From Pseudomonas guangdongensis (GTDB lineage: Bacteria > Pseudomonadota > Gammaproteobacteria > Pseudomonadales > Pseudomonadaceae): DNA of 64,000 bases. The notes beneath the pieces are model-generated. The model searched no databases. It was not told the origin of the DNA and saw nothing but the letters and a program-made list of their open reading frames with translations. Of this stretch, positions 37,638 to 64,000 are shown in pieces. Position 1 is the first letter of the stretch, and each line of letters opens with the position of its first letter. A program made the position numbers and the translations under genes. Location of the stretch: NCBI RefSeq assembly GCF_900105885.1, contig NZ_LT629780.1:1612001-1676000 (forward strand). Reading direction: 5' to 3'.

Positions 37638-37964
37638 TCAGGGGTGTACCAGTGCGCGAACCACCTGAACCAGGGTGGCGCGTTGCTCCTCAGTGAGAGA
37701 TTCGCGATAGGCCGGCATGGCGCCGGGGCCTTTGTCGATCGCGTGCAGGATCTCGGCATCGCTGCGCTTGTCCTGCCAAGTGCGGTCGCTCAGGTTCTCG
37801 GCGCGGAACAGCCAGCCGCGCCAGGTTTTGCCACGGCCTTCGTCGCCGTGGCACTTGGCGCAGTACTGGCGATACAGCGCCCGGCCGTCGTCGGCGAGCG
37901 CCGTCTGGCCGGCGAGCAGGGCGGCAGCGAGCAGCGCAGCTACCGGAAGGCGCTTAGCGGACAT
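37638..37964 (-). CDS. Small periplasmic c-type cytochrome
   Basis: A 108-residue monohaem cytochrome. After a Sec signal (RLPVAALLAAALLAGQTALA) the mature part has the haem motif C35-A-K-C-H39 and a probable distal Met in KGPGAMPAY. Electron partner unknown. It overlaps the preceding gene by 11 bp and is the last gene of the pigment operon's tail, which hints at a role tied to the outer-envelope pigment (for instance redox chemistry of its aryl head group), but this is only inferred from position. Confidence 0.88.
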   Translation of the reverse strand: MSAKRLPVAALLAAALLAGQTALADDGRALYRQYCAKCHGDEGRGKTWRGWLFRAENLSDRTWQDKRSDAEILHAIDKGPGAMPAYRESLTEEQRATLVQVVRALVHP

Positions 37965-38391
37965 TGGCTAGGTCTGCCTTGAGTGCGACGCCGGCCATGA
38001 TGGCGCCGGCATGGCATTCGTACTTCTGGCGATCCTTGTACTCGACGTGCTGGTAGTTGCTGGTGATGTTCACCACGGCATTGGCGCCTGCCGCCTTGGC
38101 GGCATTCTGCATGGCGATCAGCGCCGACTGCAGGGCCCAGCTGCAGGCCGCCTCGTCGGTCTTGTTGAAGGCGTTGGTCTTCTTGCTGGTCGACACGCCG
38201 CTGCGTACGATCTTGGCGCCGGCCGGAGCGCTGGCCAGGTAGAACTTCACGCTGCCGTCGAGGCGGCCGGCATTGGTGGCTTCCTGAACCACGCTGGCGA
38301 AGTCGAGGTGGTGGGTGGTGTCACGCGCCTGGCTGATACCCGGCAGGGCGGCGAGGAGCAGGGCGGCAGCGGTCAAGCCTTTAAGTTGCAT
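37954..38391 (-). CDS. Exported YbjQ-like ('excinuclease') family protein
   Basis: A 145-residue secreted protein: Sec signal (LTAAALLLAALPGISQA), then a single domain ending in MQNAAKAAGANAVVNITSNYQHVEYKDRQKYECHAGAIMAGVALK, which resembles the YbjQ/heavy-metal-binding-like fold. Homologues are often labelled 'excinuclease' by mistaken transfer; no nuclease or ATPase motif is present. It keeps two Cys (AACSW and YECHAG) that could form a disulfide. It follows the last ketosynthase after 66 bp, and homologues occur near aryl polyene clusters, so it is treated as part of the locus. Function unknown. Confidence 0.78.
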   Translation of the reverse strand: MQLKGLTAAALLLAALPGISQARDTTHHLDFASVVQEATNAGRLDGSVKFYLASAPAGAKIVRSGVSTSKKTNAFNKTDEAACSWALQSALIAMQNAAKAAGANAVVNITSNYQHVEYKDRQKYECHAGAIMAGVALKADLANVR

Positions 38392-38457
38392 GGTCGTCTC
38401 CTTGACGAAGTGGCGGCCGGGCCGGCATGGCCGCGGCCAGCAGGGTATTCCGTCGGT

Positions 38458-39693
38458 TCAGCGCCAGCGGCGGAAGATCAACGAGGTGTTGACCCCGCCG
38501 AAGGCGAAGTTGTTGTTCATCACGTATTCGTGGCTCATCCGCCGCGGCTCGCCTTGCAGATAGTCGAGTTCGCCGCAGCGCGGGTCGATGTTGTCGAGGT
38601 TGAGGGTGTGGATGTACTGGTCGCGGTTGAGCATCTCGATGCTGAACCAGGACTCCAGCGCCCCGCAGGCGCCGAGGGTATGGCCGAGGTAGCTTTTCTG
38701 CGAGCTGATCGGCATGCGCGGGCCGAACAGGCTGCTGGTGGCCTGGGTTTCGGCGATATCGCCTTGCTCGGTTGCCGTGCCGTGGCCGTTGACGTAGCCG
38801 ATGGCGTCGGCCGGCAGCTCGGCATCTTCGAGTGCCAGTTCCATGGCGCGGCGCATGGTCGCCTGCTCGGGCTTGGTGACGTGCTGGCCGTCGGCGTTGC
38901 TGCCGAAGCCGACGATCTCTGCGTGGATGCGTGCGCCGCGGGCCAGGGCGTGCTCCAGCTCCTCGAGCACCAGCATGCCGGCGCCCTCGCCGATCACCAG
39001 GCCATCGCGGCCGACGTCGTAGGGGCGTGGCGAGCTGTGCGGTGCGTCGTTCTTCAGGCTGGTCGCGTACAGCGCGTCGAACACCATGGCCTCGGTCGGG
39101 CACAGCTCCTCGGCACCGCCAGCGAGCATCAGCGGCAGGCGGCCGTATTTGATCGCCTCGTAGGCGTAGCCGATGCCCTGGCTGCCGCTGGTGCAGGCGC
39201 TGGAAGTGGGGATCATCCGCCCGGTGAGGCCGAAGAAGATGCTGATGTTGGCCGCGGTGGTATGCGGCATCATGCGCACGTAGGAGTTGGCGTTGAGGCC
39301 ATCGGCTACCGAGTTGAGCAGCATGTTGCCGAACGCCTTGATATCCTCGGTACTGCCGGTGGACGAGCCGCAGGCCACACCCATGCGTCCGTCGCGGATG
39401 CTCGTATCGTCATGCAGGCCGGCGTCGGTCAGCGCCCGCTCGGCGGCCAGCACCACCATGCGCGACACTCGGCCCATGCTGCGCAGCTGCTTGCGGGTCC
39501 AGTGTGCCGGTACCTGGAAATCGTCGATCGGCCCGCCCAGACGGGTGTTCAGTTCGCTGAAACGCTCCCACTCGGGCATATGGCGGATGCCGCTGCGGTT
39601 GGCGCAGAAGTTGCCGTGCAGGGTCGCCCAGTCGTTGCCCAGGGCGGTGATGCCGGCCATGCCGGTGACCACCACGCGTCTTGGCTTGGCCAT
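38458..39693 (-). CDS. apeR: Beta-ketoacyl-ACP synthase (FabF type) of the aryl polyene pathway
   Basis: A 411-residue KAS II-type condensing enzyme. Catalytic triad complete: Cys167 in TSSACTSGSQG, His304 in NGHGTATEQ, His338 in KSYLGHTLG. Last of the conserved run KS - dehydratase - ketoreductase - KS (apeO-P-Q-R order of characterised APE clusters); the name is assigned by that order. In studied systems this second KS is accessory to the KS/chain-length-factor pair. The ATG at 39693 shares its A with the ketoreductase stop (TGATG); a GTG two codons earlier is possible. GGAGG stands upstream. Confidence 0.9.
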   Translation of the reverse strand: MAKPRRVVVTGMAGITALGNDWATLHGNFCANRSGIRHMPEWERFSELNTRLGGPIDDFQVPAHWTRKQLRSMGRVSRMVVLAAERALTDAGLHDDTSIRDGRMGVACGSSTGSTEDIKAFGNMLLNSVADGLNANSYVRMMPHTTAANISIFFGLTGRMIPTSSACTSGSQGIGYAYEAIKYGRLPLMLAGGAEELCPTEAMVFDALYATSLKNDAPHSSPRPYDVGRDGLVIGEGAGMLVLEELEHALARGARIHAEIVGFGSNADGQHVTKPEQATMRRAMELALEDAELPADAIGYVNGHGTATEQGDIAETQATSSLFGPRMPISSQKSYLGHTLGACGALESWFSIEMLNRDQYIHTLNLDNIDPRCGELDYLQGEPRRMSHEYVMNNNFAFGGVNTSLIFRRWR

Positions 39694-40421
39694 CAGCACA
39701 GCCCTCCGTTGACCGCGATGACCTGGCGGGTGATGTAGGCCGCCTCCTCTGACATCAGGAAGTTGACCAGTCCGGCGACTTCCTCGGGGGTGCCCATGCG
39801 CTGCGCCGGGATCATCTTGAGCATCTCCTCGACCGGCACGTGCTCGTCGAGCATGGCGGTGTCGATCAGCCCGGGCGCCACGCAGTTGACCGTGATGCGG
39901 CGTTTGCCCAGCTCGATCGCCAGGGCCTTGGCGGCGCCGATCACCCCTGCCTTGGAGGCGCTGTAGTTGACCTGGCCGCGGTTGCCGATCAGCCCGGATA
40001 CCGAGGTGATGCAGACGATGCGCCCGGGCGCGCGGCGGCGCACCATCGGCATGGTCAGCGGGTGCAGCACGTTGTAGAAGCCGTCGAGGTTGGTGCGCAG
40101 CACGCGGTCCCAGTCCTCGCCTTCCAGCGCCGGGAAGGCGCCGTCGCGGGTCAGGCCGGCGTTGCAGACCACTCCGTACCAGGCGCCATGGCGTTCGATG
40201 GCGGCCTCCAGTTGGGTGCGGGCGGCCTCGCGGTCTGCCACGTCGAACTGCAGGATGTCGGCGTCGCGGCCCAGCGCGGCGATTTCGGCGGCGACCGCCT
40301 CGGCTTCGCTGCGACCGCTGCGGCAGTGCAGGGTGAGGTCGTAGCCGGCGCGCGCCAGGCGCAGGGCGATGGCGCGGCCGATGCCGCGGCTGGAGCCGGT
40401 GACCAGAATGCGTTCAGTCAT
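39693..40421 (-). CDS. apeQ: 3-oxoacyl-ACP reductase (FabG type) of the aryl polyene pathway
   Basis: A 242-residue short-chain dehydrogenase. It has the NADPH-binding loop LVTGSSRGIGRAIALRLA at the N-terminus, NAG motif VVCNAGLTRDGA, the catalytic Ser in ITSVSGLIGN, the YSASK Tyr/Lys pair in VNYSASKAGVIG and the closing VNGGLC. It reduces the beta-keto group after each extension, before dehydration to a polyene double bond. The ATG at 40421 begins MTERILVTGSS, the normal FabG start. Coupled to both neighbours: starts 8 bp inside the end of the dehydratase gene. Confidence 0.93.
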   Translation of the reverse strand: MTERILVTGSSRGIGRAIALRLARAGYDLTLHCRSGRSEAEAVAAEIAALGRDADILQFDVADREAARTQLEAAIERHGAWYGVVCNAGLTRDGAFPALEGEDWDRVLRTNLDGFYNVLHPLTMPMVRRRAPGRIVCITSVSGLIGNRGQVNYSASKAGVIGAAKALAIELGKRRITVNCVAPGLIDTAMLDEHVPVEEMLKMIPAQRMGTPEEVAGLVNFLMSEEAAYITRQVIAVNGGLC

Positions 40422-40869
40422 GGACGGGGTCCTGGAGATAGCGGGCCGCCTGCGGCGGCCGGAATACGTTAAGGCGGGCTTCGACATGGATGCCCGGGCC
40501 GAGCAGCCGGCACTCGAACACGCCCATGCCGCTGTCGTCTTCCAGCGAGCGGCTGGCCTGGATGCGCAGTTCGCTGCCGGCGGGGAAGTGGTCGACGTTG
40601 CACTGGTAGCTGCGTGTGCCGAGTAAAAAGCCCAGCTCCACCGGCAGCCCGGCGCGGCGTGCGCGGCAGCCGGCGTAAGCGGCGACGCTCTGCGCCATCA
40701 GCTCAATGCCGACCCAGGCCGGCAGGCTGCCGTCGGCGCGGTTGAACAGGCCGCCGTTCCGCACGGTAAGGCGGGTCTCGATGCGCTCCTCGTCGCAGTG
40801 CTCGATGGCGTCGAGCAGGATCATGTTGCCGGCGTGCGGCAGCAGCTCGGCGAGGGACCAGGGGATCAT
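40414..40869 (-). CDS. apeP: Hotdog-fold 3-hydroxyacyl-ACP dehydratase (aryl polyene)
   Basis: A 151-residue single hotdog domain of the APE dehydratase family. It begins MIPWSLAELLPHAGNMILLD, where 'LLPHAGNM' is the family's catalytic-His region, and contains the central helix WVGIELMAQSVAAYAGCRAR. In characterised systems this protein pairs with a second hotdog subunit to form the working dehydratase; here the partner is probably the C-terminal half of the 51476-53164 protein. The start ATG overlaps the stop of the upstream ketosynthase (TGATG). Confidence 0.88.
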   Translation of the reverse strand: MIPWSLAELLPHAGNMILLDAIEHCDEERIETRLTVRNGGLFNRADGSLPAWVGIELMAQSVAAYAGCRARRAGLPVELGFLLGTRSYQCNVDHFPAGSELRIQASRSLEDDSGMGVFECRLLGPGIHVEARLNVFRPPQAARYLQDPVHD

Positions 40870-42056
40870 CAGGGTTCTCCGAGAATCAGGCTGACATTGC
40901 TGCCGCCGAAGGCGAACGAATTGCTCATCAGCCGGAGCGGCGCGCCGGCCGGCAGCCGCGTGGCGCAATCGGCGAGGCGCAGGCGCGGCAGTTGCGGATC
41001 GGCATAGCCGTCCCATACCTGCGGGATCAGCCGGCGCTGGGGATTGTATGTGGCGTCCAGGCTCAGCCAGCAGAAGGCCGCCTCGAGGGCGCCGGCAGCG
41101 CCGAGGGTGTGTCCGGTCAGCGGCTTGCTCGACGAACAGGGTACACCCTCGGGGAACACCGCGGCGGTGGCCAGGCTCTCCATCGCGTCGTTGTGCGCGG
41201 TGGCGGTGCCGTGCAGGTTCAGATAGGCGATCTCGTCGGGCTGCAGGCCGGCGTCGGCCAGCGCCGCACGCATCGCGGCGATGGCGCCGAGGCCCTCGGG
41301 CTGCGGCGCGGAGATGTGGTAGGCGTCGGAACTGGCGCCGGCGCCGAGCAGCGCCAGCGGTGCCGGCTCGCGGCTCATCAGAAACAGCGCGCTGGCCTCG
41401 CCGATGTTGATGCCGCGGCGGTTGGCGGAGAACGGGTTGCAGCGCTCGCTGGAGACTGCCTCGAGGGCGCCGAAGCCATTGAGGGTCAGTGCGCACAGCG
41501 AGTCGACGCCGCCGCACAGCACCGCGTCGCAGATGCCCAGGCGCAGCAGGCGGCGCGCGGCGAGCAGCGCGCGGGCGCTGGAGGTGCAGGCGGTGGAGAT
41601 TGCGTAGGCCGGGCCGCCGAGGCCCAGGTGGGCGGCGAGGAAGGCCGCCGGCGCCGCCAGCTCCTGCTGGCCGTAGTGGTAGTCGGGCGGGAACTGACCA
41701 TCCTGCAGCTGCGCAGCGATGCCGAGTCCCGCCTCGTGGATGCCGCTGGTACTGGTGCCCAGCACTACGCCGATGCGCGCTGCGCCGTGGCGGGCGATGG
41801 CGGCGGCGATCTCCGCGCCGATCTCTTCGGCGGCGGCCAGCAGCAGGCGGTTGTTGCGCGTGCGCCAGGCCGGCGGACAGTCGGTCGGCAGGTCCGGCAG
41901 CGCGGCGTCGACCGCGCCGACCGGCAGCGCAGCGTCCAGCCAGTCGGCGCGCGGGCGGACGCCGCCGGCATCGCCGGCGAACAGCCGGGCGGCGACTGCC
42001 GCCTTGCCGCTGCCGAGTGCGCAGGTCAGGCCCAGGGCGTTGAGATAGGCGGTCAT
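40869..42056 (-). CDS. apeO: Beta-ketoacyl-ACP synthase, main elongating KS of the aryl polyene pathway
   Basis: A 395-residue KS with complete triad: Cys157 in AISTACTSSARAL, His282 in LNLHGTATAHND, His316 in KPLTGHTLGA. By gene order it corresponds to the KS that pairs with the chain-length factor (at 54990-55739) to extend the aryl starter with malonyl-ACP units. The region between residues 30 and 70 is shorter and more divergent than in FabF, as usual for this subfamily. ATG at 42056 overlaps the upstream lipoprotein gene by 4 bp. Confidence 0.9.
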   Translation of the reverse strand: MTAYLNALGLTCALGSGKAAVAARLFAGDAGGVRPRADWLDAALPVGAVDAALPDLPTDCPPAWRTRNNRLLLAAAEEIGAEIAAAIARHGAARIGVVLGTSTSGIHEAGLGIAAQLQDGQFPPDYHYGQQELAAPAAFLAAHLGLGGPAYAISTACTSSARALLAARRLLRLGICDAVLCGGVDSLCALTLNGFGALEAVSSERCNPFSANRRGINIGEASALFLMSREPAPLALLGAGASSDAYHISAPQPEGLGAIAAMRAALADAGLQPDEIAYLNLHGTATAHNDAMESLATAAVFPEGVPCSSSKPLTGHTLGAAGALEAAFCWLSLDATYNPQRRLIPQVWDGYADPQLPRLRLADCATRLPAGAPLRLMSNSFAFGGSNVSLILGEP

Positions 42057-42556
42057 GGCGCGGTTCCTTGCAACGGGCGCACCCGGTAGGCGCGGCCTGC
42101 GCCGAGCTCCAGGGTGAATTCTTGTGGGGTGCGGTAGTTCACCTGCCAGCGGTGCCTGCCGTCAACCGCCATGCATCGATGGTCGGAGTCGGCCTGCCAC
42201 GCCTCGGCCGGCCATAGTGCCGGCAACTGTGCGCGCGGCGCCAGGGCGAACAGCAGTGCGGCGAACAGCTCGCGGGCCTCGGGGTTGGGCGGCAACAGGC
42301 CGTCATTGTGCCACTGGCCATCCTCCAGCAACTGGCGGGCCAGCGGCAGGCCGAGCGGGTCGAGCAGGCTCCAGCGCAGGCCGCGGCCCTCGTCCTGCAG
42401 CACCAGCAGCCAGTCCTGCACCTGCCCGGCGTCCTGCCGCTGTACGTGCAGGGTCAGCGGCAGCGCCAGCTGTGGTGCCTGCGCGGGCAGCGGCGCCCGG
42501 CTGGCGCAGCCGCCGAGCAGGAGCAGCAGCGCCAGCAGCAGGACGCTGCTGCGCAT
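42053..42556 (-). CDS. DUF3261 family lipoprotein
   Basis: A 167-residue lipoprotein: signal MRSSVLLLALLLLLGGC with lipobox LLGGC, then a domain with QRQDAGQVQDWLLVLQDEGRGLRWSLLDPLGLPLARQLL, the DUF3261 pattern. These lipoproteins are found almost always in aryl polyene clusters next to the FAD enzyme and MMPL exporter and are presumed to help place the pigment in the outer membrane, together with the LolA-like protein. The domain resembles the LolB family in length and hydrophobic pattern, but that is inference. Starts 10 bp after the FAD enzyme. Confidence 0.85.
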   Translation of the reverse strand: MRSSVLLLALLLLLGGCASRAPLPAQAPQLALPLTLHVQRQDAGQVQDWLLVLQDEGRGLRWSLLDPLGLPLARQLLEDGQWHNDGLLPPNPEARELFAALLFALAPRAQLPALWPAEAWQADSDHRCMAVDGRHRWQVNYRTPQEFTLELGAGRAYRVRPLQGTAP

Positions 42557-42566
42557 GCGGGCGGGG

Positions 42567-43808
42567 TCAGGCCGGCGCACAGATCTGCGCCAGCACGCCG
42601 AGGCGGCGGCGGGATTCGGCAACGTAGGGATTGTTCTGGTCCCAGGCGTAGCCGGCGAGGATCGAGCAGACCATCCGGCGGATCTCTGGCTGGGCCTTCT
42701 CGTAGTAGATGACGTCCTGGAAGCTGCCGTCGTACCAGCCCTCGACATAGGTGCGGAAGGTGTCCACGCCGCGCTTGAGCAGCACGGCGAACTCGGCTTC
42801 CCAGTCCACCGTCTCGCCGCCGAGCTGACGGTGCAGCAGGGCGGCGGCCATGCTCGACGAGCGCATGGCGATGGTCACCCCGGAGGAGAACACCGGGTCG
42901 AGGAACTCGGCGGCGTTGCCGAGCAGGGCGAAGCCCGGACCGTGCAGGGCCTTGACGTTGGCCGAGTAGCCGTCGATCAGCCGCGCCGGGGTGTCCCACA
43001 CGGCGTTCTTGAGGATGCGCCGGAGGTTTGGCGCCTCGCCGACGAACTCCTTGAGGCAGGCGTCGAGATCCACCGGGCGGCCCTCGTAGCGCTCGGCGGC
43101 GGCGACTACGCCCAGCGAGCAGCGGCCGTTGCTGAACGGGATGGTCCAGTACCAGACGTCGCGTAGCTCGGGGTGGGTGGTGATGAGGATCTTCTCGCGG
43201 TCGAAGCGCGGATCGTCGATGCGGTCCTCGATGTGGGTGAACACCGCCCGGCGCACCGGGAAGCAAGACGGCGCCTCCAGATCGAGCAGGCGCGGCAGCA
43301 CCCGGCCGTAGCCGCTGGCGTCGAGGACGAAGGCGCAGTCGATGGCGTACTCGCTGCCGTCGGCGCGGCGCACCTGCAGCTGCGGGCGGGCGCCGGCGAA
43401 GTCGGCGGCGATCAGCTCCTCCTCGTAGCGGATCTCCACGCCCTGCAGTTCGGCCTGGTCGGCCAGCAGCTTGTCGAAGGTGGCGCGCTGCACCTGGAAG
43501 GTGCTGCCGTGGCCGGCGGTGAACTTGTCGCGGAAGTCGAACTCGGTGTAGCGCTCGTCGCAGCCGAAGGCCGCGCCGTGCTTGACCTGGAAGCCGGCGG
43601 CCTGCACCGCCTCGAGCATCCCGGCCTCCTCGATGAAGTCCAGGCAATGCGACAGCAGGCTCTCGCCGATGGAGAAGCGCGGGAAGCGCTGGCGCTCCAG
43701 GATCAGCACGTCGTGGCCCTTACGCTTGAGCAGCGCGCCGGCGATGGCGCCGGAGGGGCCGGCACCGATGATCACGACTTGACGTTGTTGCAGTTCATGC
43801 AGCGCCAT
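42567..43808 (-). CDS. FAD-dependent oxidoreductase (tryptophan-halogenase/GGR-like)
   Basis: A 413-residue flavoprotein of the p-hydroxybenzoate hydroxylase-like superfamily. The dinucleotide site is VVIIGAGPSGAIAGALLKRKG, followed by LERQRFPRFSIGESLL as in halogenases and geranylgeranyl reductases, and the second FAD motif is GPGFALLGNAAEFLDPVFSSGV. The halogenase-specific Lys/WxWxIP motif is replaced by VWYWTIPFSNG, so a close relative of halogenases; brominated APE-type pigments (xanthomonadins) are known, but hydroxylation or desaturation is equally possible. ATG at 43808; overlaps the antiporter-like gene by 14 bp. Confidence 0.87.
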   Translation of the reverse strand: MALHELQQRQVVIIGAGPSGAIAGALLKRKGHDVLILERQRFPRFSIGESLLSHCLDFIEEAGMLEAVQAAGFQVKHGAAFGCDERYTEFDFRDKFTAGHGSTFQVQRATFDKLLADQAELQGVEIRYEEELIAADFAGARPQLQVRRADGSEYAIDCAFVLDASGYGRVLPRLLDLEAPSCFPVRRAVFTHIEDRIDDPRFDREKILITTHPELRDVWYWTIPFSNGRCSLGVVAAAERYEGRPVDLDACLKEFVGEAPNLRRILKNAVWDTPARLIDGYSANVKALHGPGFALLGNAAEFLDPVFSSGVTIAMRSSSMAAALLHRQLGGETVDWEAEFAVLLKRGVDTFRTYVEGWYDGSFQDVIYYEKAQPEIRRMVCSILAGYAWDQNNPYVAESRRRLGVLAQICAPA

Positions 43809-44952
43809 AGGGGCTCCTTGCCTGAGGTTGTCTTATGCAGCGGGGGGCGATGCCGGGAATGGCCGGCAGCAGGGTGGAAACCAGGCTCATCAGCAGCAGG
43901 GCGAAATACACCGCCGGCGAGATGACCTGCTGTGCCAGCAGCAGGTTGAGAAAGACGATTTCGGTCAGCCCGCGGATGTTCAGCAGCAGGCTCTCGCGCC
44001 ACTTGCCGGCGACGTCGCCCGGGCCGCCGGCCCAGCGCAGGCCCAGCCAGTTGCCGGCCAGCTTGCTGACGATCGGCAGCAGCACCAGCGCCAGCAGATG
44101 GCTGGCCGAGTAGCCGGCGACGGCCTGCTGGAAATCGACCTGGAGGATGCCGTAGCTGAGCAGCAGCGGGATCGCCAGGTACTGCTGCAGCCACTGCCAG
44201 TGCGCCGGACGTAGCGGCAGCTGCAGCGGCAGGCCCAGCCGGGCCAGGCACAGCAGGTAGCCGATGCCGAACAGCAGGGCGTTGCCGCCCAGTTGCTGGA
44301 ACGCCAGCATCAGGGCGAAGAACGGCAGGCTGTAGCCCAGCGGGCGGCGCAGGCCGCAGCGGTGCAGCGCCAGCGGCAGCAGGGCGGCGAGCAGGGTGAG
44401 CAGCAGCATCAGCGGGCGGCCGCCGCCCTGGGCCAGGGCGAACAGTCCCCAGCAGGCCAGGTCGATGAGGATCGCGCTCTGCAGCAGGCGCCGGCTGGCG
44501 TCCGCGGCATAGCCGATGCTGCGCAGGTAGAGGTGCAGGATCGGGATGGCGCTGAGGGCGAACAGCAGGCCGAGGGCGAGGCGCGCCAGCCAGCCGTCCA
44601 GCGCCAGCAGCCAGATGGCGCTGGCCAGGCCGCAGAGGAACGGCACCAGGAAGCTCGGCAGAGCGATCTTCAGGCTCGGCAGGCTGACCTCGAGCTCGAT
44701 CACGTCGCCGAGGATGTGGCCGAGCAGCAGCGCGAAGCACAGGCCGTAGAGCAGCTCCAGCCAGGCCGGAGCGACCAGCGCGGCCTGGCTCAGCGCGCCG
44801 TCGGCGGGCAGTCCGTAGAGCGTCAGCAGCGGCAGGCCGAGGCAGGCCAGCAGTAGCTGGCTGACGATCGGCAGCAGACCGAGCGCGCGGCCGAGGCGCG
44901 CGGCGCCGGCGTACAGCAGCGGCAGCGCCAGCCAGCAGAGCAGGACGGTCAT
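43795..44952 (-). CDS. Na+/H+-antiporter-like polytopic membrane protein
   Basis: A 385-residue protein with about eleven hydrophobic segments, starting MTVLLCWLALPLLYAGAARLGRALG. The run LLPIVSQLLLACLGLPLL, the 'ELEVSLPSLKIALPSFLVPFLCG' loop and SKLAGNWLGLRW near the C-terminus resemble the CPA2/Kef cation:proton antiporter fold, and 'NIRGLTEIVFLNLLLAQQVIS' matches the last conserved helices of that family. Substrate unknown. It lies between MMPL exporter and FAD enzyme with overlaps on both sides (4 bp and 14 bp), so it is clearly part of the operon, although such a gene is not among the usual aryl polyene components. It may energise or regulate pigment export. Confidence 0.82.
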   Translation of the reverse strand: MTVLLCWLALPLLYAGAARLGRALGLLPIVSQLLLACLGLPLLTLYGLPADGALSQAALVAPAWLELLYGLCFALLLGHILGDVIELEVSLPSLKIALPSFLVPFLCGLASAIWLLALDGWLARLALGLLFALSAIPILHLYLRSIGYAADASRRLLQSAILIDLACWGLFALAQGGGRPLMLLLTLLAALLPLALHRCGLRRPLGYSLPFFALMLAFQQLGGNALLFGIGYLLCLARLGLPLQLPLRPAHWQWLQQYLAIPLLLSYGILQVDFQQAVAGYSASHLLALVLLPIVSKLAGNWLGLRWAGGPGDVAGKWRESLLLNIRGLTEIVFLNLLLAQQVISPAVYFALLLMSLVSTLLPAIPGIAPRCIRQPQARSPYGAA

Positions 44953-55739: not shown

Positions 55740-55806
55740 TGACGGGGGATGGCATCCTTGCACGGCAGCCAGCGGCTACCAGAGAGGCCTGAGAAAAAGT
55801 GTTGGC

Positions 55807-55835: not shown

Positions 55836-55873
55836 ATGCCGGCTGTCATGGAGCTGCGGGCCGGGTGGGAGGC

Positions 55874-56329: not shown

Positions 56330-56362
56330 AATCGCTCCCCTTTTGGCAGTCACATTGTCCCT

Positions 56363-57301: not shown

Positions 57302-58447
57302 GTGCCCAATCCCGTCTACATCAACCGCATCAGCGCCTGTCTGCCCCACGAGCCGGTGGGCAACGAGGAGATGGAAGCGCGTCTCGGCCTGGTCGGCGGC
57401 AAGCCGTCGCGGGCGCGCAAGCTGGTGCTGCGCAGCAACGGCATCCGCAGCCGCCATTACGCCATCGATCCGCACAGCGGCCGGCCGAGCATGAGCAATG
57501 CGCAGATGACCGCCGCGGCAGTACGCGGCCTGCTCGGCGACGGTTTCGCCCTCGACGACATCCAGTGCCTGGCGACCGGCACCTCGACGCCCGACCAACT
57601 GATGCCCAACCATGCGGTGATGGTGCACGGCGAGCTGGGCCACCCGCCCGCCGAGGTGGTGGCCACAGCTGGCATCTGTCTGTGCGGCGTCAGCGCGCTG
57701 AAGTACGCCTGGCTCAGCGTGCGCAGCGGCGAGACCGGCAACGCGGTGGCTTGCGGTTCGGAACTGGCCTCCGGGCTGATGCACGCTGGCAACTTCGAGG
57801 CCGAGCTGGAGGGCCGGGTGGCCGAGCTGGAGCGCCGCCCGGAAATCGCCTTCGAGAAGGACTTCCTGCGCTGGATGCTCTCCGACGGCGCCGGCGCGGT
57901 GCTGCTCGAGGGCCGGCCCAATCCGCAGGGGCCGAGTCTGCGCCTGGACTGGATCGACATCCTGTCGTTCGCCGACCGCATGCCGCCGTGCATGTACGCC
58001 GGCGCGGAGAAGGACGGCGACGAACTGGTCGGCTGGACCCGCTTCGACGCCGCCGGCCGCGCGCGGCGCTCGGTCATGGCGATCAAGCAGGACGTCAAGC
58101 TGCTCAACGACAACATCGTGCGGCTGACCGTCGAGGAGGCGCTGCAGCGGATCATGCCGCGCCGCGGCCTGAGCGCCGCGGCGATCGACCATTTCCTGCC
58201 GCACTACTCCTCGGGGTTCTTCCGCGAGCGCCTGGCTACCGGTCTGCAGCGGGCCGGCCTGGCGATTCCCGAGGAGCGCTGGTTCACCAACCTGGCCGAC
58301 AAGGGCAACACCGGCGCGGCGTCGTTCTTCATCATGCTCGACGAGCTGTTCCACAGCGGGCGCCTGCAGAAGGGCCAGCGCATCCTTGGCTATGTGCCGG
58401 AAAGCGGGCGCTTCTCCAGCGCCTTCCTGCACATGACCGTGGTCTGA
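57302..58447 (+). CDS. darB: Beta-ketoacyl synthase III-type enzyme DarB
   Basis: A 381-residue FabH-like condensing enzyme. The nucleophile region is ATAGICLCGVSALKYAW (Cys126 or Cys128), the His is in IDHFLPHYSSGFF and the Asn in LADKGNTGAASFF, so a full KAS III triad is likely. DarB joins two fatty-acid-derived chains in Claisen/Michael-type steps to make the dialkylresorcinol carbon skeleton. It starts with GTG at 57302, preceded by AGAGGAAGG, a very strong ribosome site. Part of darA-darB-orf-btrH-like operon. Confidence 0.92.
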   Translation: MPNPVYINRISACLPHEPVGNEEMEARLGLVGGKPSRARKLVLRSNGIRSRHYAIDPHSGRPSMSNAQMTAAAVRGLLGDGFALDDIQCLATGTSTPDQLMPNHAVMVHGELGHPPAEVVATAGICLCGVSALKYAWLSVRSGETGNAVACGSELASGLMHAGNFEAELEGRVAELERRPEIAFEKDFLRWMLSDGAGAVLLEGRPNPQGPSLRLDWIDILSFADRMPPCMYAGAEKDGDELVGWTRFDAAGRARRSVMAIKQDVKLLNDNIVRLTVEEALQRIMPRRGLSAAAIDHFLPHYSSGFFRERLATGLQRAGLAIPEERWFTNLADKGNTGAASFFIMLDELFHSGRLQKGQRILGYVPESGRFSSAFLHMTVV

Positions 58448-58455
58448 GGCCGGCG

Positions 58456-58866
58456 ATGAAGCTCGACGAGGTTCCCCAAGACGACGGCGGCACCCATGCC
58501 GGCCACCACAAGCTGCTCTACGCGGTGGACGAGCAGGGACGCTACTGCGGTGCGCCGAGCCAGGGCTGGGAGGCCGAGGCGTTCTGTACCCGCCTGGCGG
58601 TGCAGGAGCTGGAGGAGCAGGCCGCCGCCGCGCTGGCCGACTGGCGCGCCGGGCGGCGGTCGCCGCTACCCTGGCTGATGTATCGCAGCCGCCTCGACGA
58701 GGCGGCGCTGGCACAGATCGTCGGCCTGTGGCGCTGGCGCCTGCGCCGGCATTTCCGCCCCGCGGTGTATCGCCGCCTACCGGCGAAGCTGCTGGCGCGC
58801 TACGCCGAAGCCTTCGGCGTCGAGCTGGACGCACTGATTCGCTACCAGCAGGAGCTGCCCGCATGA
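58456..58866 (+). CDS. Small conserved protein of the dialkylresorcinol operon
   Basis: A 136-residue soluble protein of unknown function, starting MKLDEVPQDDGGTHAGHHKLLYAVDEQGRYCGAPSQGWE. No catalytic motif is recognised. The middle is rich in Glu/Ala (probably helical) and the C-terminus RRLPAKLLARYAEAFGVELDALIRY looks like two short helices. It begins 9 bp after darB and its stop overlaps the next start (ATGA), so it must be translated with the DarB and BtrH-like proteins. It could be a partner or scaffold for them; this is inference only. Confidence 0.78.
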   Translation: MKLDEVPQDDGGTHAGHHKLLYAVDEQGRYCGAPSQGWEAEAFCTRLAVQELEEQAAAALADWRAGRRSPLPWLMYRSRLDEAALAQIVGLWRWRLRRHFRPAVYRRLPAKLLARYAEAFGVELDALIRYQQELPA

Positions 58867-59861
58867 AGGATTTCCAGCATCGCCACGGCGCCCACTGCGA
58901 AAGCGGTGTGATGGCCAGCCTGGTCAGTCATGCCGGCCTGCCGCTCAGCGAGCCGATGGCCTTCGGCCTGTCCTCGGCGCTGGCCTTCGCCTACCTGCCG
59001 ATCGTCAAGCTCGGCGGCATGCCGCTGATCGCCTACCGCATGCCGCCCAAGCACATCATCCGCACCCTCAGCAAACGCCTCGGCGCGCACCTGCACATCG
59101 AGCGTTTCCGCTCCGAGGACAAGGGGCGCCGGGCACTGGATGCGGCGCTGGACGCCGGCCGGCTGGTCGGCCTGCAGAGCTCGGTGTTCTGGCTGCCGTA
59201 CTTCCCGCCGGAGATGCGCTTCCACTTCAACGCCCACAACCTGCTGGCCTACGGCCGCGAGGGTGACGACTACCTGCTCAGCGATCCGGTGTTCGAGGCA
59301 CCGGTGCGCTGCGCCGCCGCCGACCTGCACAAGGCGCGCTTCGCCAAGGGCGCGCTGGCCGCCCGTGGACTGCTGTACTGGCTCGAAGATGTGCCGGTCG
59401 AGCAGGACTGGAGCCGGCTGGTCCGCCAGAGCGTGCTGTCCACCACGCGGATACTCGACGGCATGCCGCTGCCGTGGATCGGCATCCGTGGCATCCGCCA
59501 CCTTGCCGGCCAGGTGCGCCGGCTGGATCCGGCGCAGATGAAGTACAACCGCCTGTACCTCACCCATATCGTGCGAATGCAGGAAGAGATCGGCACCGGC
59601 GGTGCCGGTTTCCGCTTCATGTACGCGAGCTTCTTGCAGGAGTCCGGCGCGCTGCTCGGCGATGCCCGGCTCGGTGAACTGGCCGTGCATCTGACCGCCA
59701 TCGGCGACGACTGGCGGCGTTTCGCCTCGGCCAGCGTGCGCCTGTGCCGCGACCGGCAGGCGCGCCCCGAGTTCGCGCCGCTGGCCGAGCAGCTCGAGGG
59801 CATCGCCGCGCAGGAGCGCGAGCTGGTGCGCCGGCTCGGCGCCTGGGCCCGGGGGCGCTGA
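58863..59861 (+). CDS. BtrH-like N-terminal/DUF4872 protein
   Basis: A 332-residue protein. The N-terminus holds GAHCESGVMASLVSHAGLPLSE, with Cys12 and Ser14 in the place of the catalytic Cys of BtrH, which transfers an acyl chain from ACP to an amine in butirosin synthesis. The middle ('HFNAHNLLAYGREGDDYLLSDP') and DUF4872-like C-terminal half follow. Because the operon makes a resorcinol and the adjacent operon an acyl-ACP polyene, this is a good candidate for the ACP-to-resorcinol ester-forming step; not shown by the sequence itself. Ends 9 bp from the convergent KS-like gene. Confidence 0.85.
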   Translation: MKDFQHRHGAHCESGVMASLVSHAGLPLSEPMAFGLSSALAFAYLPIVKLGGMPLIAYRMPPKHIIRTLSKRLGAHLHIERFRSEDKGRRALDAALDAGRLVGLQSSVFWLPYFPPEMRFHFNAHNLLAYGREGDDYLLSDPVFEAPVRCAAADLHKARFAKGALAARGLLYWLEDVPVEQDWSRLVRQSVLSTTRILDGMPLPWIGIRGIRHLAGQVRRLDPAQMKYNRLYLTHIVRMQEEIGTGGAGFRFMYASFLQESGALLGDARLGELAVHLTAIGDDWRRFASASVRLCRDRQARPEFAPLAEQLEGIAAQERELVRRLGAWARGR

Positions 59862-59870: not shown

Positions 59871-60434
59871 TCAGTCGAGGGTCAGCTGCTCGACGGCCAG
59901 GCCGGCGCTCAGGCCGGCGAAGTCGCCACCTTCCGGGGCCGCGCCGTTGCTGTCGAGCAGCAGCGCCTCGGCGTGGAAGGCGCCGCCGTCCTCGCGGCAC
60001 AGCAGCAGCAGCGCCTGGGACACCCGGCCGCCCGCCAGGTCGAGTTCGGCCAGTTCGAGCAGGTGCCGCCAGACCTGCTGGCCGGCGCCGATGAACAGGT
60101 TGGGGCCGTCCAGGCCGAGCTGCTGGGCGACGTGGAAGCCGGCGGCGTTGCTCACGCTGTTGACGAACTCGAAGGGCTTGGGCAGGCGCTGCTGCAGGCA
60201 GACGCTGTCGAGCAGGGCGAACATGTTGCTGCGCGCCGGGTAGTCGGCGGCCAGGTACAGGCCGCAGTCGGCCTGCACCCGGCCGCGCAGCGGCGCGGCG
60301 GCGAGCAGCGCCTGCAGGCTGAGGCGGTCGAGGCGCCGCGGCGGATGGGCCAGGCGCTGCGCCAGCGCGCTCTTCAGTTCCCGTTCGCTGGCGTCCTGGC
60401 GGCCGCTGACCCGGCTGGCGGCGATCACGCGCAT
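59871..60434 (-). CDS. Degenerate ketosynthase-like protein
   Basis: A 187-residue protein resembling the N-terminal half of a thiolase-fold ketosynthase: 'CGLYLAADYPARSNMFALLDSVCLQQRLPKPFEFVNSVSNAAGFHVAQ' with Ser/Asn in the region where a KS has its catalytic Cys, and no C-terminal HGT or GHT motif. It could act as a chain-length-factor-like partner for the complete KS encoded next (overlap 10 bp). It is too short to be a whole KS but shows no frameshift, and similar stand-alone proteins exist in pigment clusters. Confidence 0.75.
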   Translation of the reverse strand: MRVIAASRVSGRQDASERELKSALAQRLAHPPRRLDRLSLQALLAAAPLRGRVQADCGLYLAADYPARSNMFALLDSVCLQQRLPKPFEFVNSVSNAAGFHVAQQLGLDGPNLFIGAGQQVWRHLLELAELDLAGGRVSQALLLLCREDGGAFHAEALLLDSNGAAPEGGDFAGLSAGLAVEQLTLD

Positions 60435-61528
60435 GCGTCGACTCCCTGCAGCACCAGGCTGGCGTTGTTGCCGCCGAAGCCGAAGTAGTTGGCCAGCAGC
60501 AGGCTGCCGGCGGCCAGTGCCTGCGGCTGCGCCGGCAGCGGCAGCAGCGCCGCGTCGGCGTAGGGGCAGGCCGGCAGCGCACCCCGGCGCAGGGCGGCGG
60601 CGAGCAGCAGGGTCTCGCTCAGCCCGCAGGCGCCGAGGGTGTGGCCGAGGTAGGGCTTGAGCGCCTGCAGCGGCGGCATGGCTGCGCCGAAGGTCAGGCG
60701 CATGCCGTTGGCCTCGGCGCGGTCGTTGGCCGCGGTGGCGGTGCCGTGCAGCTTGACCAGGTCGAGGTCTTCGGCAGCGCAGCCGGCATCCGCCAGCGCG
60801 GCGCGCATCACCCGCTCGATATGGCTGCCGTCCTCGCGGGTGGTGGTCAGGTTGCTGGTGTCGCAGGCGCTGTAGCCGCCGAGCAGGCGGGCCAGCGGCC
60901 GCTCGCCCGGCTCGCGGTCGAGCAGCACGCTGGCGTAGGCCTCGCCGAGCAGCAGGCCGTCGCGCTCGGGATGGAACGGCCGGTAGGCGGCGCTGGGACT
61001 GGTCAGGTCGAGCACGCCGAAGCCCTGCAGGGCGACCTGGCTGGGGGTCTCGAAAGCCAGCAGCAGGGCGCGCCGGTAGCGGCCTCGTTCGAGCAGCCGG
61101 GCGGCATACAGCAGGGCGTTGGCGGCGCTGGTGCAGGCGGTGTTGAGGGTGCAGGCGGCGGCGAAACCGCGCTCCTCGCGCAGGCGCTGCGCCAGCCAGT
61201 CGAGCGGGGTGGCCAGGTCGGGCTGCAGCGCGGCGCCCTCTCGTACCTGGCCTTCGAGGCTGGCGATGTCCAGGGTGGTCGAGGCGATCAGCAGCAGACA
61301 GTCGTGGGCCGGGCCGTCGAGACTGGCGTCGAGCAGCCGCTGCAGGCGCGGCAGCAGTTCGAGCGCCGGCCCGCAGGCCGGCAGCCAGGGGCGGCGCTGG
61401 CCGAACTCGTGCAGTTCGAACCATTCCGGTTGCGGCCGGCGGCCGGCGATCAGGCTGGCGCAGGCGCTGTCGAGGTCTTCGCCCAGCGCGCTGCACAGCT
61501 GGGCGCGGCGCAGGTACACCGCGGTCAC
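60425..61528 (-). CDS. Beta-ketoacyl-ACP synthase of the second pigment operon
   Basis: A 367-residue KS with complete triad: Cys132 in LNTACTSAANAL, His261 in VKLHGTATAAND, His296 in KPYLGHTLGACG. It is shorter than FabF but closely shaped like the KS at 40869. The start is GTG at 61528, overlapping the ACP stop (GTGA). With the degenerate KS-like protein and the dedicated ACP it could make one of the alkyl chains used by DarA/DarB or extend the polyene; which one cannot be told. Confidence 0.88.
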   Translation of the reverse strand: MTAVYLRRAQLCSALGEDLDSACASLIAGRRPQPEWFELHEFGQRRPWLPACGPALELLPRLQRLLDASLDGPAHDCLLLIASTTLDIASLEGQVREGAALQPDLATPLDWLAQRLREERGFAAACTLNTACTSAANALLYAARLLERGRYRRALLLAFETPSQVALQGFGVLDLTSPSAAYRPFHPERDGLLLGEAYASVLLDREPGERPLARLLGGYSACDTSNLTTTREDGSHIERVMRAALADAGCAAEDLDLVKLHGTATAANDRAEANGMRLTFGAAMPPLQALKPYLGHTLGACGLSETLLLAAALRRGALPACPYADAALLPLPAQPQALAAGSLLLANYFGFGGNNASLVLQGVDACA

Positions 61529-61791
61529 CCGCGCTGCCTGACGAAGGCGGCGATGCTGTCGATCGAGTTGAGGATGCGCCGGCCCTGCCTGGAGTCCTCG
61601 ATGCGCACGCCGTAGTGCTGCTGCAGGGCCAGCGACACCTGCAGGGCGTCCAGGCTGTCCATCTGGATGCGGCTGTCCTGGCCGAACAGCGGCTCGTCGT
61701 CGGCGATGCTCTGCCAGTCGATGTCGTCTTCCTTGTCGCACTCGCGGATCAGCAACTGCTTGAGCTGTTGCTTCAGTAGTGTGTCGTCCAT
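61525..61791 (-). CDS. Acyl carrier protein of the second pigment operon
   Basis: An 88-residue ACP with the phosphopantetheine Ser46 in RIQMDSLDALQVSLALQ. The N-terminal half has more basic residues than the other two ACPs and the C-terminus ends SIDSIAAFVRQRG. It lies between the ABC permease (overlap 19 bp) and the KS (overlap 4 bp). Possibly the DarC-like ACP serving DAR formation. Confidence 0.9.
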   Translation of the reverse strand: MDDTLLKQQLKQLLIRECDKEDDIDWQSIADDEPLFGQDSRIQMDSLDALQVSLALQQHYGVRIEDSRQGRRILNSIDSIAAFVRQRG

Positions 61792-62960
61792 TGGGTATCG
61801 TTCAGTCGGCGGTGGAAGAGAAGCAGGCCGGCAGCGCCGACCAGCGCGGCGAACAGCAGCAGGCGGACGCACCAGGCGGCGATGTCGGCGAGCGAGCCGT
61901 GGCCGACCAGCAGGGCGAGGAAGGCATCCAGCGCCCAGCTCATCGGCGACAGCTCGGCGATCAGGCCCATGGCGGCGGGCATCACGCTCTTGGGCACCAT
62001 GATGCCGCCGAGGGCGGCGAGGATAATGTTGATGCCGCCGCTGAGCAACACGGCCTGCTCGGTGCTGCGCACCAGGCTGGCGATGGCCAGGCCGAGGCTG
62101 CAGGCGGCCAGCGCCAGGCTGAGCGCCAGCGCCAGGTAGGCGAGGGCGCTGCCCGGCAGGTTCAGCCCCGGCAGGCCGAGCAGCGGCAGGCCCCAGACGC
62201 CGAGGGCGAGCAGCAGGGCGAACTGCAGCAGATTGATGCCGAGGTAGGGCAGCAGCTTGCTCAGCGCCAGGGTGCCGATGCCCAGCTGCAGGCAGCGCAG
62301 GCGCAGCAGGGTGCCGCTCTGCCGTTCGCGCTGGAAGCTGTTGGCCATCGGCAGCATGACGAAGAAGCTGCCGAAGATCAGCCAGGCCGGCACGCTGTGC
62401 TGGCTGGCGTTGGCCCGCGCGCTCAGCTCGCCGTCGCTGAGCCGGTCCTGCTCGGCGATGTTGCTCTGGGTGCGCTCGCGCACCAGCGCCAGGCGCTCGG
62501 CCAGCGGCAGGGTCGGGTCGAGTTCGCCGCTGTCCTCGAGGAACACCAGCAGGCGGGTCTGCGCCAGGGCGATCTGGCTGGCGCTGCGCAGCCGCTGGCG
62601 GGTCAGCGCATCGCTGCTGGCGGGGAACACCAGGGTCAGGCTGCTGCGCTGGCTGTCGAGCAGTTCGCCGGCGAAGTCGCCGCTCAGGCGCACCTGCGGC
62701 CACTGCGGCGGGCCGCCGGCGCGGAGCTCGCCGTCGCCCAGCTGGGCGCGCAGGGCGGCGGCGAAGAACTCCGCTTCGGCGCCGGGGCTGGGGACTTCCA
62801 GGCTCAGCTGCAGCGGCGGCAGGCGTTCGCGGTTGACTTCGGAGAGGGCGGCGGCCATCAGCAGGACGAACAGCGCCGGCATCAGGAGCAGCACTGCCAG
62901 GGCGTGGCGGTCGCGGCCCAGTAGCAGGACTTCCTTGCGCATCAGAGAGAGTAGTCTCAC
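61773..62960 (-). CDS. ABC-2 type permease
   Basis: A 395-residue permease: N-terminal helix (HALAVLLLMPALFVLLMAAAL), a large extracytoplasmic domain (about 45-200), then five helices with the ABC-2 signature region MLPMANSFQRERQSGTLLRLRCL and GGIMVPKSVMPAAMGLIAELSPMSWALDAFL. It forms an exporter with the adjacent ATPase. The start is GTG at 62960 (overlap GTGA with the ATPase stop), giving MRLLSLMRKEVLLLGRD, the usual start of this family; an ATG lies six codons later. Cargo is probably the DAR or the finished pigment ester. Confidence 0.88.
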   Translation of the reverse strand: MRLLSLMRKEVLLLGRDRHALAVLLLMPALFVLLMAAALSEVNRERLPPLQLSLEVPSPGAEAEFFAAALRAQLGDGELRAGGPPQWPQVRLSGDFAGELLDSQRSSLTLVFPASSDALTRQRLRSASQIALAQTRLLVFLEDSGELDPTLPLAERLALVRERTQSNIAEQDRLSDGELSARANASQHSVPAWLIFGSFFVMLPMANSFQRERQSGTLLRLRCLQLGIGTLALSKLLPYLGINLLQFALLLALGVWGLPLLGLPGLNLPGSALAYLALALSLALAACSLGLAIASLVRSTEQAVLLSGGINIILAALGGIMVPKSVMPAAMGLIAELSPMSWALDAFLALLVGHGSLADIAAWCVRLLLFAALVGAAGLLLFHRRLNDTQWTTHY

Positions 62961-63841
62961 AGCCGGCCTCCGCTCAGGTGCAGGTAGAGCTGCTCCAGCG
63001 ACGGCCGGCCGAAGCGCAGCAGGCTGGGTGGCTGCGGCTGGGCGGCGATGAACTGGCACAGGCGCGCCAGCTGCGCGGCGTCGAGCTGCGCCAGGCGGTA
63101 CCCGGCGGGTAGCGCGTTGAATGCCAGGTCCAGTTCGCCGAACAGCTGCTCGAGGCCGGGCGGCGGCGCCTCCGGCCACTCCAGCAGCAGTTCGTGCTGG
63201 TCGCCGAGCAGCTCGCGTTTGTCGAGGTCGAGGCGGATGTGTCCCTCGTCGAGCAGGACGATGCGCTGCGCCACGCGCTCGACCTCGTCGAGGTGGTGGC
63301 TGGTGTAGATCGCCGCGCAGCCCTCCGCCGTCAGTTGCTGCACGGCGTCCAGCAGCAGCCGGCGCGACTGCGCGTCGACGCCGGCGGTGGCTTCGTCGAA
63401 CAGGTAGAGGCTGGCCGGCTGCAGCAGGCCGATGGCGAAGTTCAGCCGGCGCTGCTGGCCGCCGGAGAGCAGCCCGGCGCGCCGCGGCTGCAGCTCGCCC
63501 AGTCGGCAGGCTTCGATGCAGCGTTCCAGGCGCTGGCGGCGCGGGCTGCCGCGCAGGCGGTAGAGGTCGGCGAACAGCGCGAGGTTCTCGGCGACGCTGA
63601 GGCCGTCGTAGAACGCCGCCTGCTGCGGGATCAGGCCGATGCAGCGCGCGCCGCTCCAGCGGATTTCGCCCTGCTGCGGTTGGCGCAGACCGGCGATCAG
63701 CGACAGCAGGGTGGTCTTGCCGGCGCCGTTGCTGCCGAGCAGGCCCAGGCACTGGCCGGCCTGCAGGCGCAGGTCGAGGTGCTGCAGCGCCGGGCGCGCG
63801 GCGCCGGGATAGCTGAAGCCGAGGTCGCGCAGCTCAAGCAT
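62957..63841 (-). CDS. ABC transporter ATPase
   Basis: A 294-residue nucleotide-binding protein: Walker A GSNGAGKTT, Q-loop LIPQQAAFYDGLSVAENL, signature LSGGQQRR, Walker B LYLFDEATAGVD and H-loop TSHHLDEVE. The C-terminal about 90 residues form the extra domain of CcmA/DrrA-type exporters. It begins inside the end of the partial gene upstream (8 bp overlap) and is coupled to the permease. Confidence 0.93.
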   Translation of the reverse strand: MLELRDLGFSYPGAARPALQHLDLRLQAGQCLGLLGSNGAGKTTLLSLIAGLRQPQQGEIRWSGARCIGLIPQQAAFYDGLSVAENLALFADLYRLRGSPRRQRLERCIEACRLGELQPRRAGLLSGGQQRRLNFAIGLLQPASLYLFDEATAGVDAQSRRLLLDAVQQLTAEGCAAIYTSHHLDEVERVAQRIVLLDEGHIRLDLDKRELLGDQHELLLEWPEAPPPGLEQLFGELDLAFNALPAGYRLAQLDAAQLARLCQFIAAQPQPPSLLRFGRPSLEQLYLHLSGGRL

Positions 63842-64000
63842 GTTGCAGCACCAGCAGCAGGTTGCCGTCGAGCAGCAGGCGCTCCTGGCTGTGGATGGTG
63901 AAGCGGTAGCTGGCGCCAGCCGGACTCAGCGCCTGCTGCTCGGCCTCGAGCAGCAGCGCGCCGCTGCGTTGCGCGGGGACCGCGTGCAGCTTTAGCGCGC
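63834..64000 (-). CDS. Partial gene, probable hotdog-fold protein (C-terminal end)
   Basis: Only the last 54 residues or so are in the window, ending TGA at 63836-63834: 'AVPAQRSGALLLEAEQQAL', 'GASYRFTIHSQERLL' and 'LLLVLQHA'. The alternating hydrophobic strands resemble the last strands of hotdog dehydratases, and the position before an ABC exporter, ACP and KS fits a dehydratase, but the fragment is too short to be sure. Confidence 0.5.
   Translation of the reverse strand, partial: ALKLHAVPAQRSGALLLEAEQQALSPAGASYRFTIHSQERLLLDGNLLLVLQHA

Follow-up and report, generated by a model that had tools for sequence, protein, structure and literature searches.

The 64,000-base window analyzed here covers positions 1612001–1676000 of a single 3,191,054-base contig of a Pseudomonadaceae genome, that of Pseudomonas guangdongensis, and carries a gene block in which an aryl polyene (APE) operon lies beside an extended dar locus for a dialkylresorcinol (DAR). 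In window coordinates the block runs from 37638 to 64241, its last part lying beyond the window end at 64000. Gene calling and a codon-usage score divide it into three runs, on the minus strand (37638–55739), the plus strand (56363–59861), and the minus strand (59871–64241), inside which neighboring genes overlap or stand at most 24 bases apart, with the single exception of a 66-base gap. Every gene in the block is open, and the spacing is operon-like. The first-pass annotation had described the APE and darA-darB operons as facing each other; they in fact diverge across 623 bases, and convergence occurs instead between the third operon and darH. The GC content of the block (0.69–0.73) is similar to that of its surroundings (0.70), and the neighborhood, which encodes PilM, PilN, a secretin, dehydroquinate synthase, glutamate synthase, and uroporphyrinogen decarboxylase, is the pil-glt-hem setting named in that annotation. 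The order at the site is gltD-hemE, a major facilitator superfamily (MFS) gene, a LysR gene, APE, dar. Plasmid searches returned one record with a best match of 59 bases, and a further search returned 10 distant records of less than 35% identity.

Gene identities were assigned from gene calling and from Pfam, NCBIfam, and PDB sequence searches, Pfam being given 30 proteins of the block (Table 1). The plus-strand run is darA-darB-darG-darH, of which the last three exceed the cut-offs of their NCBIfam models; DarB stays below the narrower exception model NF053539 (472.9 versus 550 bits). DarA matches no Pfam or NCBIfam model. It does match 4043 of 8000 scored candidates at E ≤ 0.001, and among the 120 matches listed the informative source names read dialkylrecorsinol or dialkylresorcinol condensing enzyme. 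Because nearly all of these 120 are 304–305 residues long, the start at 56363, giving 304 residues, is the best choice; 24 bases then separate darA from darB. The darA-darB pair proposed in the first-pass annotation is thus present.

The APE operon is complete and of the ApeO/ApeC type. ApeO and the half-size ApeC match the two subunits of the solved structure 6qsp, itself an ApeO:ApeC pair, and they are joined by a ketoreductase, ApeP and ApeI dehydratases, two acyl carrier proteins, an AMP ligase, glycosyl- and acyltransferases, and LolA. The first-pass reading of a full APE operon, including chain-length factor and ammonia-lyase, therefore stands, the exporter being exporter-like by sub-cut-off matches only. 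Gene names other than ApeO, ApeC, ApeP, and ApeI (ApeR and ApeQ) follow what we take to be the gene order of Escherichia coli. The halogenase-like protein retains the GxGxxG, WxWxIP, and DPVFSSG motifs, which allows for a halogenated ring. The ammonia-lyase has Phe-His in motif 1 and, as read by eye, Gln in motif 2; under the motifs given in PMC3992019, whose authors state in the same passages that substrate prediction fails, Phe-His does not make the enzyme a clear tyrosine ammonia-lyase. Of the APE proteins searched with Pfam, none gave a methyltransferase match, and no chorismatase match was obtained among the 30 block proteins, to which that search was confined.

Four members of the operon are less readily placed. 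The small cytochrome gene at its end is a doubtful member, with no counterpart among the matches in relatives' loci. The adjacent 145-residue protein has no Pfam match and only insignificant NCBIfam matches; it is kept beside the APE ketosynthase or hemE in Pseudomonadaceae, including the DarH-less genome G131. Neither the 385-residue protein, which is perhaps like ArcG (annotated as a Na/H antiporter in Azoarcus), nor the 182-residue protein belongs to a family by Pfam or NCBIfam.

Table 1. Features of the pigment block, in window coordinates, with the main evidence for each
Feature	Position	Strand	Evidence
Small c-type cytochrome, doubtful member	37638..37964	-	Pfam Cytochrome_CBB3 7.6e-16; 11-base overlap with next gene
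145-residue protein, function not assigned	37954..38391	-	58-75% identity in kin loci, 62% in G131
ApeR-like ketosynthase	38458..39675	-	Pfam ketoacyl-synt 1.9e-41; SSACTS Cys and both His motifs
ApeQ-like ketoreductase	39693..40421	-	Pfam adh_short_C2 6.3e-54
ApeP dehydratase	40414..40869	-	Pfam ApeP-like 6.4e-19, 68.5 bits vs cut-off 27
ApeO ketosynthase, Cys-His-His	40869..42056	-	PDB 6qsp_A (ApeO) 5.6e-107
DUF3261 protein	42053..42556	-	Pfam DUF3261 8.1e-6
FAD halogenase/monooxygenase-like protein	42567..43808	-	PDB 3nix_A 2.8e-105, CmlS 5.9e-39
385-residue hydrophobic, presumably membrane protein	43795..44952	-	60% identity in G131
RND/MMPL-like exporter	44949..47309	-	NCBIfam HAE3 transporter 5.8e-12, HpnN 5.9e-8, both sub-cut-off
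LolA-like periplasmic carrier	47281..47880	-	Pfam LolA_3 1.6e-10
Thioesterase	47877..48305	-	Pfam 4HBT_2 2.1e-11
Aromatic amino-acid ammonia-lyase, Ala-Ser-Gly	48298..49839	-	Pfam Lyase_aromatic 3.1e-158
LpxL-type acyltransferase	49820..50752	-	Pfam Lip_A_acyltrans 1.7e-11
Family 2 glycosyltransferase	50749..51483	-	Pfam Glycos_transf_2 1.7e-15
AMP ligase fused to ApeI-type dehydratase	51476..53164	-	Pfam AMP-binding 2e-20, ApeI-like 1.2e-14
182-residue hydrophobic, presumably membrane protein	53161..53709	-	Matched in Rheinheimera (L077, L078), L084, L094, L099, L101
Acyl carrier protein 1	53706..53954	-	Pfam PP-binding 9.7e-14; DSI motif
Acyl carrier protein 2	53967..54227	-	Pfam PP-binding 2.9e-10; DSV motif
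PlsC-type acyltransferase	54208..55029	-	Pfam Acyltransferase 3e-16
ApeC chain-length factor	54990..55739	-	Pfam Ketoacyl-synt_2 1.9e-70; PDB 6qsp_B (ApeC) 9.3e-27
Divergent region between APE and dar operons	55740..56362	.	623 bases, gap table
darA, dialkylresorcinol condensing enzyme/aromatase	56363..57277	+	Source names of close relatives
darB, StlD/DarB ketosynthase	57302..58447	+	NF005293 578.6 bits vs cut-off 450; PDB StlD 5.8e-143
darG	58456..58866	+	NF053536 DarG_fam 159.5 bits vs 70
darH, BtrH-related papain-like acyltransferase	58863..59861	+	NF053550 DarH_acyl 465.5 bits vs 300; PF14399 (BtrH_N) 1.8e-48
darK, putative ApeC-like chain-length-factor partner	59871..60434	-	Profile match ApeC 88.5%, E 2.7e-6
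darJ, ketosynthase, Cys-His-His	60425..61528	-	Pfam; profile match ApeO 100%
darC, acyl carrier protein	61525..61791	-	Pfam PP-binding 2.7e-4; DSL motif
darI, ABC-2 permease	61773..62942	-	Pfam ABC2_membrane 4.8e-22
darF, ABC ATPase	62957..63841	-	Pfam ABC_tran 1.2e-26
135-residue ApeP-like protein, C-terminal part in window	63834..64000	-	Gene start 64241; profile match ApeP 96.7%, E 3.7e-10

To place the block among its relatives, we used the best 80 of 110 named DarH loci, 50 of them pseudomonad-like (some also in the family set described below) and 30 others. The third operon, darK-darJ-darC-darI-darF with a gene for an ApeP-like protein, had been noted in the first-pass annotation as a unit of its own comprising a ketosynthase, a carrier protein, and an ABC exporter. 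Its gene content is as described, with the addition of the ApeC-like DarK and the ApeP-like protein, the latter without a Pfam match, but it is part of the dar locus: it accompanies darA-H in 48 of the 50 pseudomonad-like loci, and we rejected the idea of a separate system. In fold searches DarK matches 7f28_C (1.4e-8) and 6qsp_B (2.2e-7), and because it looks to be of the ApeC type, the operon may contain a second ketosynthase pair. DarJ, DarK, DarC, and the ApeP-like protein may form a small type II ketosynthase set of their own, the second in the block, which, by a weak line of reasoning, might supply a substrate of DarB. In two Pseudomonas loci (L050, L055) darA-B-G-H stands without this operon, including its 135-residue member, within 10 kb; these strains may be natural tests of the need for it. 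Beyond the window, a PEMT/ICMT-like membrane methyltransferase gene follows the dar block (64333–64878, plus strand; L009:4334-4879), as a PEMT/ICMT-like gene does in all four loci checked (L031, L045, L061, L072). The enzyme could methylate the pigment.

The predicted model of DarH has a papain-like fold that is nearest to AziU3, CtaG, and CcbD, the matches covering nearly the whole protein; a PDB sequence search gave a best E of only 0.93. Cys12, His125, and Asp141 are invariant across 45 DarH sequences, and a Cys-His-Asp set is common to BtrH, CtaG, CcbD, AziU3, and DarH. These four enzymes form amides, whereas the product predicted for DarH is a phenyl ester. We would give even odds that DarH is the enzyme that joins the polyene acid to the resorcinol as an ester.

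The distribution of DarH was compared with those of DarB and an APE marker in a family set of 198 genomes (marker ApeP) and a class set of 369 genomes (marker PF13723). Counts take over-cut-off matches only and so leave out DarH-like matches below it in G066, G185, G290, and G415, as well as DarB-like ones; four of the latter in the class set with E ≤ 1e-60 (G296, G354, G500, G578) are in genomes absent from the PF13723 list. In the family set, DarB occurs in 19 genomes, DarH in 18, and ApeP in 90; every DarB genome has ApeP (19/19), and every DarH genome has both (18/18). The class set gives the same picture, with DarB in 21 genomes from 18 families, DarH in 18, and PF13723 in 86, all 21 DarB genomes having PF13723 and all 18 DarH genomes having PF13723 and DarB. 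Pooled (G000 and G015 are common to both), the sets comprise 38 distinct DarB genomes, all with an APE marker and 34 with DarH, and DarH over its cut-off is always accompanied by DarB and an APE marker (34/34), even where the loci are unlinked. Hypergeometric P values, which ignore kinship, are 9.8e-8 for DarB with ApeP in the family set and 6.5e-15 for DarB with PF13723 in the class set; on these counts and values a chance neighborhood of dar and APE genes was rejected. The first-pass suggestion that the two halves act as one functional set gains support from these counts.

The named DarH loci agree: ApeP is present in all 50 pseudomonad-like genomes, and PF13723 in 29 of the 30 others, seven times weakly (50–62 bits), the exception being a metagenome-assembled genome (L100). 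Two of these loci deserve a remark. In Bibersteinia trehalosi DSM 23101, the stretch matched as darH (L094:10001-10981) contains an in-frame stop, and darA and darB are unmatched in that locus. A 1.93 Mb contig titled Pseudomonas stutzeri NCTC11607 (L109, CABDVE010000001.1) has a dar-APE arrangement and a DarH identity of about 50% that resemble Aggregatibacter loci, and the name of the record may be wrong.

The distance between the two halves varies widely. For the 18 family-set genomes with DarH, the distance from darH to ApeP is no more than 20 kb in five (G000, G006, G023, G123, G170), 45–60 kb in four (G007, G014, G156, G162), and more than 0.9 Mb in three (G094, G146, G172); in six (G015, G037, G073, G088, G101, G193) ApeP is on a different contig. 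DarH and ApeP are thus often unlinked and yet co-occur, so that their pairing is not merely positional. Within the fetched flanks of up to 10 kb from darH, hemE and an APE ketosynthase are both found in 18 of the 50 pseudomonad-like loci; no APE ketosynthase was seen there in 32, all of which come from genomes with ApeP.

The chromosomal site is common to other Pseudomonadaceae. The genome G131, the sole DarB genome of the family set without DarH, has the order of the window, gltD-hemE-MFS-LysR-145-residue protein-APE, and the stretch fetched, which ends within the lyase gene, includes LolA, exporter, thioesterase, and lyase genes. Elsewhere this genome carries a bare pair of darA (47% identity) and darB (60%), with no match to darG, darH, darK, darJ, darC, darI, or darF in the 20 kb fetched and no DarH over the cut-off in the genome; the pair may be a locus for free 2-hexyl-5-propylresorcinol (HPR). 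None of seven congeners has DarB over the cut-off, DarH, or ApeP. The block is absent from the four congener sites fetched, where the gene lying beyond the dar block in the present genome comes immediately after LysR; the block has been either lost in those congeners or gained here. The present genome (G000) measures 3.19 Mb, compared with 3.7–4.7 Mb for the seven congeners, and alone among the eight has DarB over the cut-off, DarH, and ApeP.

We propose, with a probability of roughly 75%, that the locus produces a pigment, presumably yellow, like flexirubin or arcuflavin, in which an aryl polyene carboxylic acid would be esterified to a 2,5-dialkylresorcinol. The ammonia-lyase would release cinnamic or coumaric acid, which the AMP ligase would load onto an acyl carrier protein. 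ApeO:ApeC, for which the solved pair is the guide, would then extend this starter together with ApeR, the ketoreductase, ApeP, and the ApeI domain to a carrier-bound polyene, with the halogenase-like protein perhaps adding chlorine or bromine to the ring. On the other side, DarB would condense two fatty-acyl thioesters and DarA complete the resorcinol, as is known for their homologues. DarH would move the polyene acyl group from the carrier protein via Cys12 to a resorcinol hydroxyl, a step on which our confidence is evenly divided. LolA with the MMPL-like exporter, DarI-DarF, or both would presumably carry the product to the cell envelope.

Several observations weigh against a joined product, or against DarH as its maker. 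The glycosyltransferase and the LpxL- and PlsC-type acyltransferases, along with LolA and the exporter-like protein, would fit an APE lipid without any DAR. They lend weight to a reading with two unconnected products: an APE lipid held in the membrane, as E. coli makes, and a dialkylresorcinol that leaves the cell in free form through DarI-DarF. The same reading is favored by the dar locus having an ABC exporter of its own, by the unlinked loci of several relatives, and by the DarH-less G131, whose APE locus also contains genes for LolA, exporter, thioesterase, and lyase. We nevertheless regard separate products as unlikely: all 38 genomes with DarB over the cut-off have an APE marker, the surroundings fetched for darAB in G131 showed no DarG, DarH, or K-J-C-I-F set, and arcuflavin is a hybrid from a strain with the same kinds of dar genes (PMC3949708, Table 1). 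The association is itself to be read with care: the P values take no account of kinship, the APE marker differs between the two sets, and 2 of 14 control genomes, Caulobacter vibrioides and Bacteroides ihuae, match DarB at E ≤ 1e-60, with one of the two exceeding the cut-off. B. ihuae alone among the 14 has PF13723, C. vibrioides lacking it, and DarH has no match in any of the 14, these two included. B. ihuae, through which the DarH search covered Bacteroidota, is not, to our knowledge, a flexirubin producer.

The identity of the joining enzyme is the more delicate point. DarH is missing from 4 of the 38 distinct genomes that have DarB and an APE marker, namely G131 (100% complete), G474 (96%), G381 (85%), and G497 (82%), the last three from the class set; either DarB with APE needs no DarH, or there is a further joining enzyme. 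The enzymes nearest to DarH in fold, moreover, make amides and not esters. The halves might then be joined by another enzyme of the block, such as the PlsC- or LpxL-type acyltransferase, the thioesterase, or a ligase, with DarH in a different role, such as the loading or transfer of an acyl group onto DarC. The authors of PMC3992019 indeed proposed, in the passages concerned, a ligase-like enzyme, FlxW, as the joiner in flexirubin. That DarH over its cut-off occurs only together with DarB and an APE marker argues against another joiner, as does the thioesterase also being in the APE locus of G131, and we consider such an arrangement rather unlikely. PlsC- and LpxL-type genes, for their part, are general in APE clusters. 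Finally, the absence of DarB over the cut-off, DarH, and ApeP from all seven congeners, and of the block from the four fetched sites, might suggest a decaying or silent cluster; with all block genes open, operon-like spacing, and every catalytic residue inspected retained (in the ketosynthases, carrier proteins, lyase, halogenase-like protein, and DarH), we judge an inactive locus highly improbable.

We return to the ester-linked pigment as the favored product. A fuller proposal, which seems to us equally open to being right or wrong, is that DarH is the papain-like, carrier-dependent ester synthase of polyene-DAR pigments, that DarJ-DarK-DarC and the ApeP-like protein form a dedicated second module feeding or tuning the resorcinol half, and that the halves stay a functional pair across many families despite drift of the loci. 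What is new here is the evidence bearing on how the halves are joined, that is, the fold, residues, and distribution of DarH. In the open-licence literature, to which the search was limited, no paper was found that credits the ester bond to a BtrH-like enzyme, and in pigment biosynthesis a BtrH-like gene is named, within the text covered, only in the Azoarcus table (PMC3949708). Flexirubin-type esterification has so far rested on the FlxW proposal (PMC3992019, in the passages cited); darH now offers a testable candidate with a predicted catalytic residue in culturable Pseudomonas.

Apart from the pigment block, the sole match of the RNA search was the Rfam antisense RNA asponA (18531–18826, plus strand, 182.5 bits), which is unrelated to the block and lies opposite the 5' end of a minus-strand penicillin-binding protein gene (16407–18800).

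An APE operon and an extended dar locus in one Pseudomonadaceae genome make this a hybrid cluster, a type already known because PMC10165715 (2023) reported APE-DAR clusters in the family. Its relevant passages describe three types (V1–V3) in marine Pseudomonadaceae, in which an APE cluster of the E. coli/Vibrio fischeri type is joined to a dar locus, as here; they call for chemistry and set the DAR part apart from the HPR locus. Pseudomonas sp. 8O (L063), one of the strains they name, shows the same dar genes together with those APE genes for which its flank has room. L063, like loci of the P. mendocina and P. straminea kinds, has the order hemE-dar-APE, whereas here it is gltD-hemE-MFS-LysR-APE-dar. 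Loci of this type were also seen in the laboratory strains P. straminea JCM 2783, P. flavescens LMG 18387, and P. alcaliphila JCM 10630. With the dar locus of P. chlororaphis, which makes free HPR and which the bare pair of G131 may represent, the present locus has darA and darB in common. Arylpolyene clusters are common in the Pseudomonas strains of PMC8719888, by the part of its text considered, and the portion of PMC5851621 on the P. donghuensis APE cluster describes an ammonia lyase and no dar operon.

In Azoarcus sp. BH72, the arcuflavin strain, darA, B, D, E, F, I, C, J, and K of Table 1 in PMC3949708 correspond to genes of this locus by annotation kind only, the BtrH-like darE being the counterpart of NCBI DarH. 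Both systems have a halogenase, LolA, an exporter, and a glycosyltransferase; the structure proposed for arcuflavin is, in the same source's account, non-brominated even though arcA is annotated as a halogenase. Azoarcus further has a chorismatase (XanB2-type, for a 3-hydroxybenzoate starter), a methyltransferase, and two unlinked polyene loci, its pigment loci not all being linked according to that account, whereas here an ammonia-lyase is found and the genes form one block. The flexirubin clusters of Chitinophaga and Flavobacterium (PMC3992019, cluster descriptions) share with this locus the ammonia-lyase starter, the set of ketosynthase, ketoreductase, and dehydratase genes, LolA, an exporter, and darAB. 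The first-pass annotation named flexirubin and arcuflavin together. The ammonia-lyase found here is flexirubin-like, and the 30 block proteins searched gave no chorismatase match, but the flexirubin-specific NCBIfam models FlxA (312 versus 700 bits) and flexirubin_DarG (118.3 versus 170) stay below their cut-offs, which places the proteins outside these narrow families. Closer to hand, P. seleniipraecipitans ABP-B9 is described in the pertinent part of PMC12239753 as having a water-insoluble yellow pigment and an arylpolyene/resorcinol cluster, and in another strain of this species (L081) these dar and APE genes lie next to each other as they do here; the locus type described here may explain that pigment.

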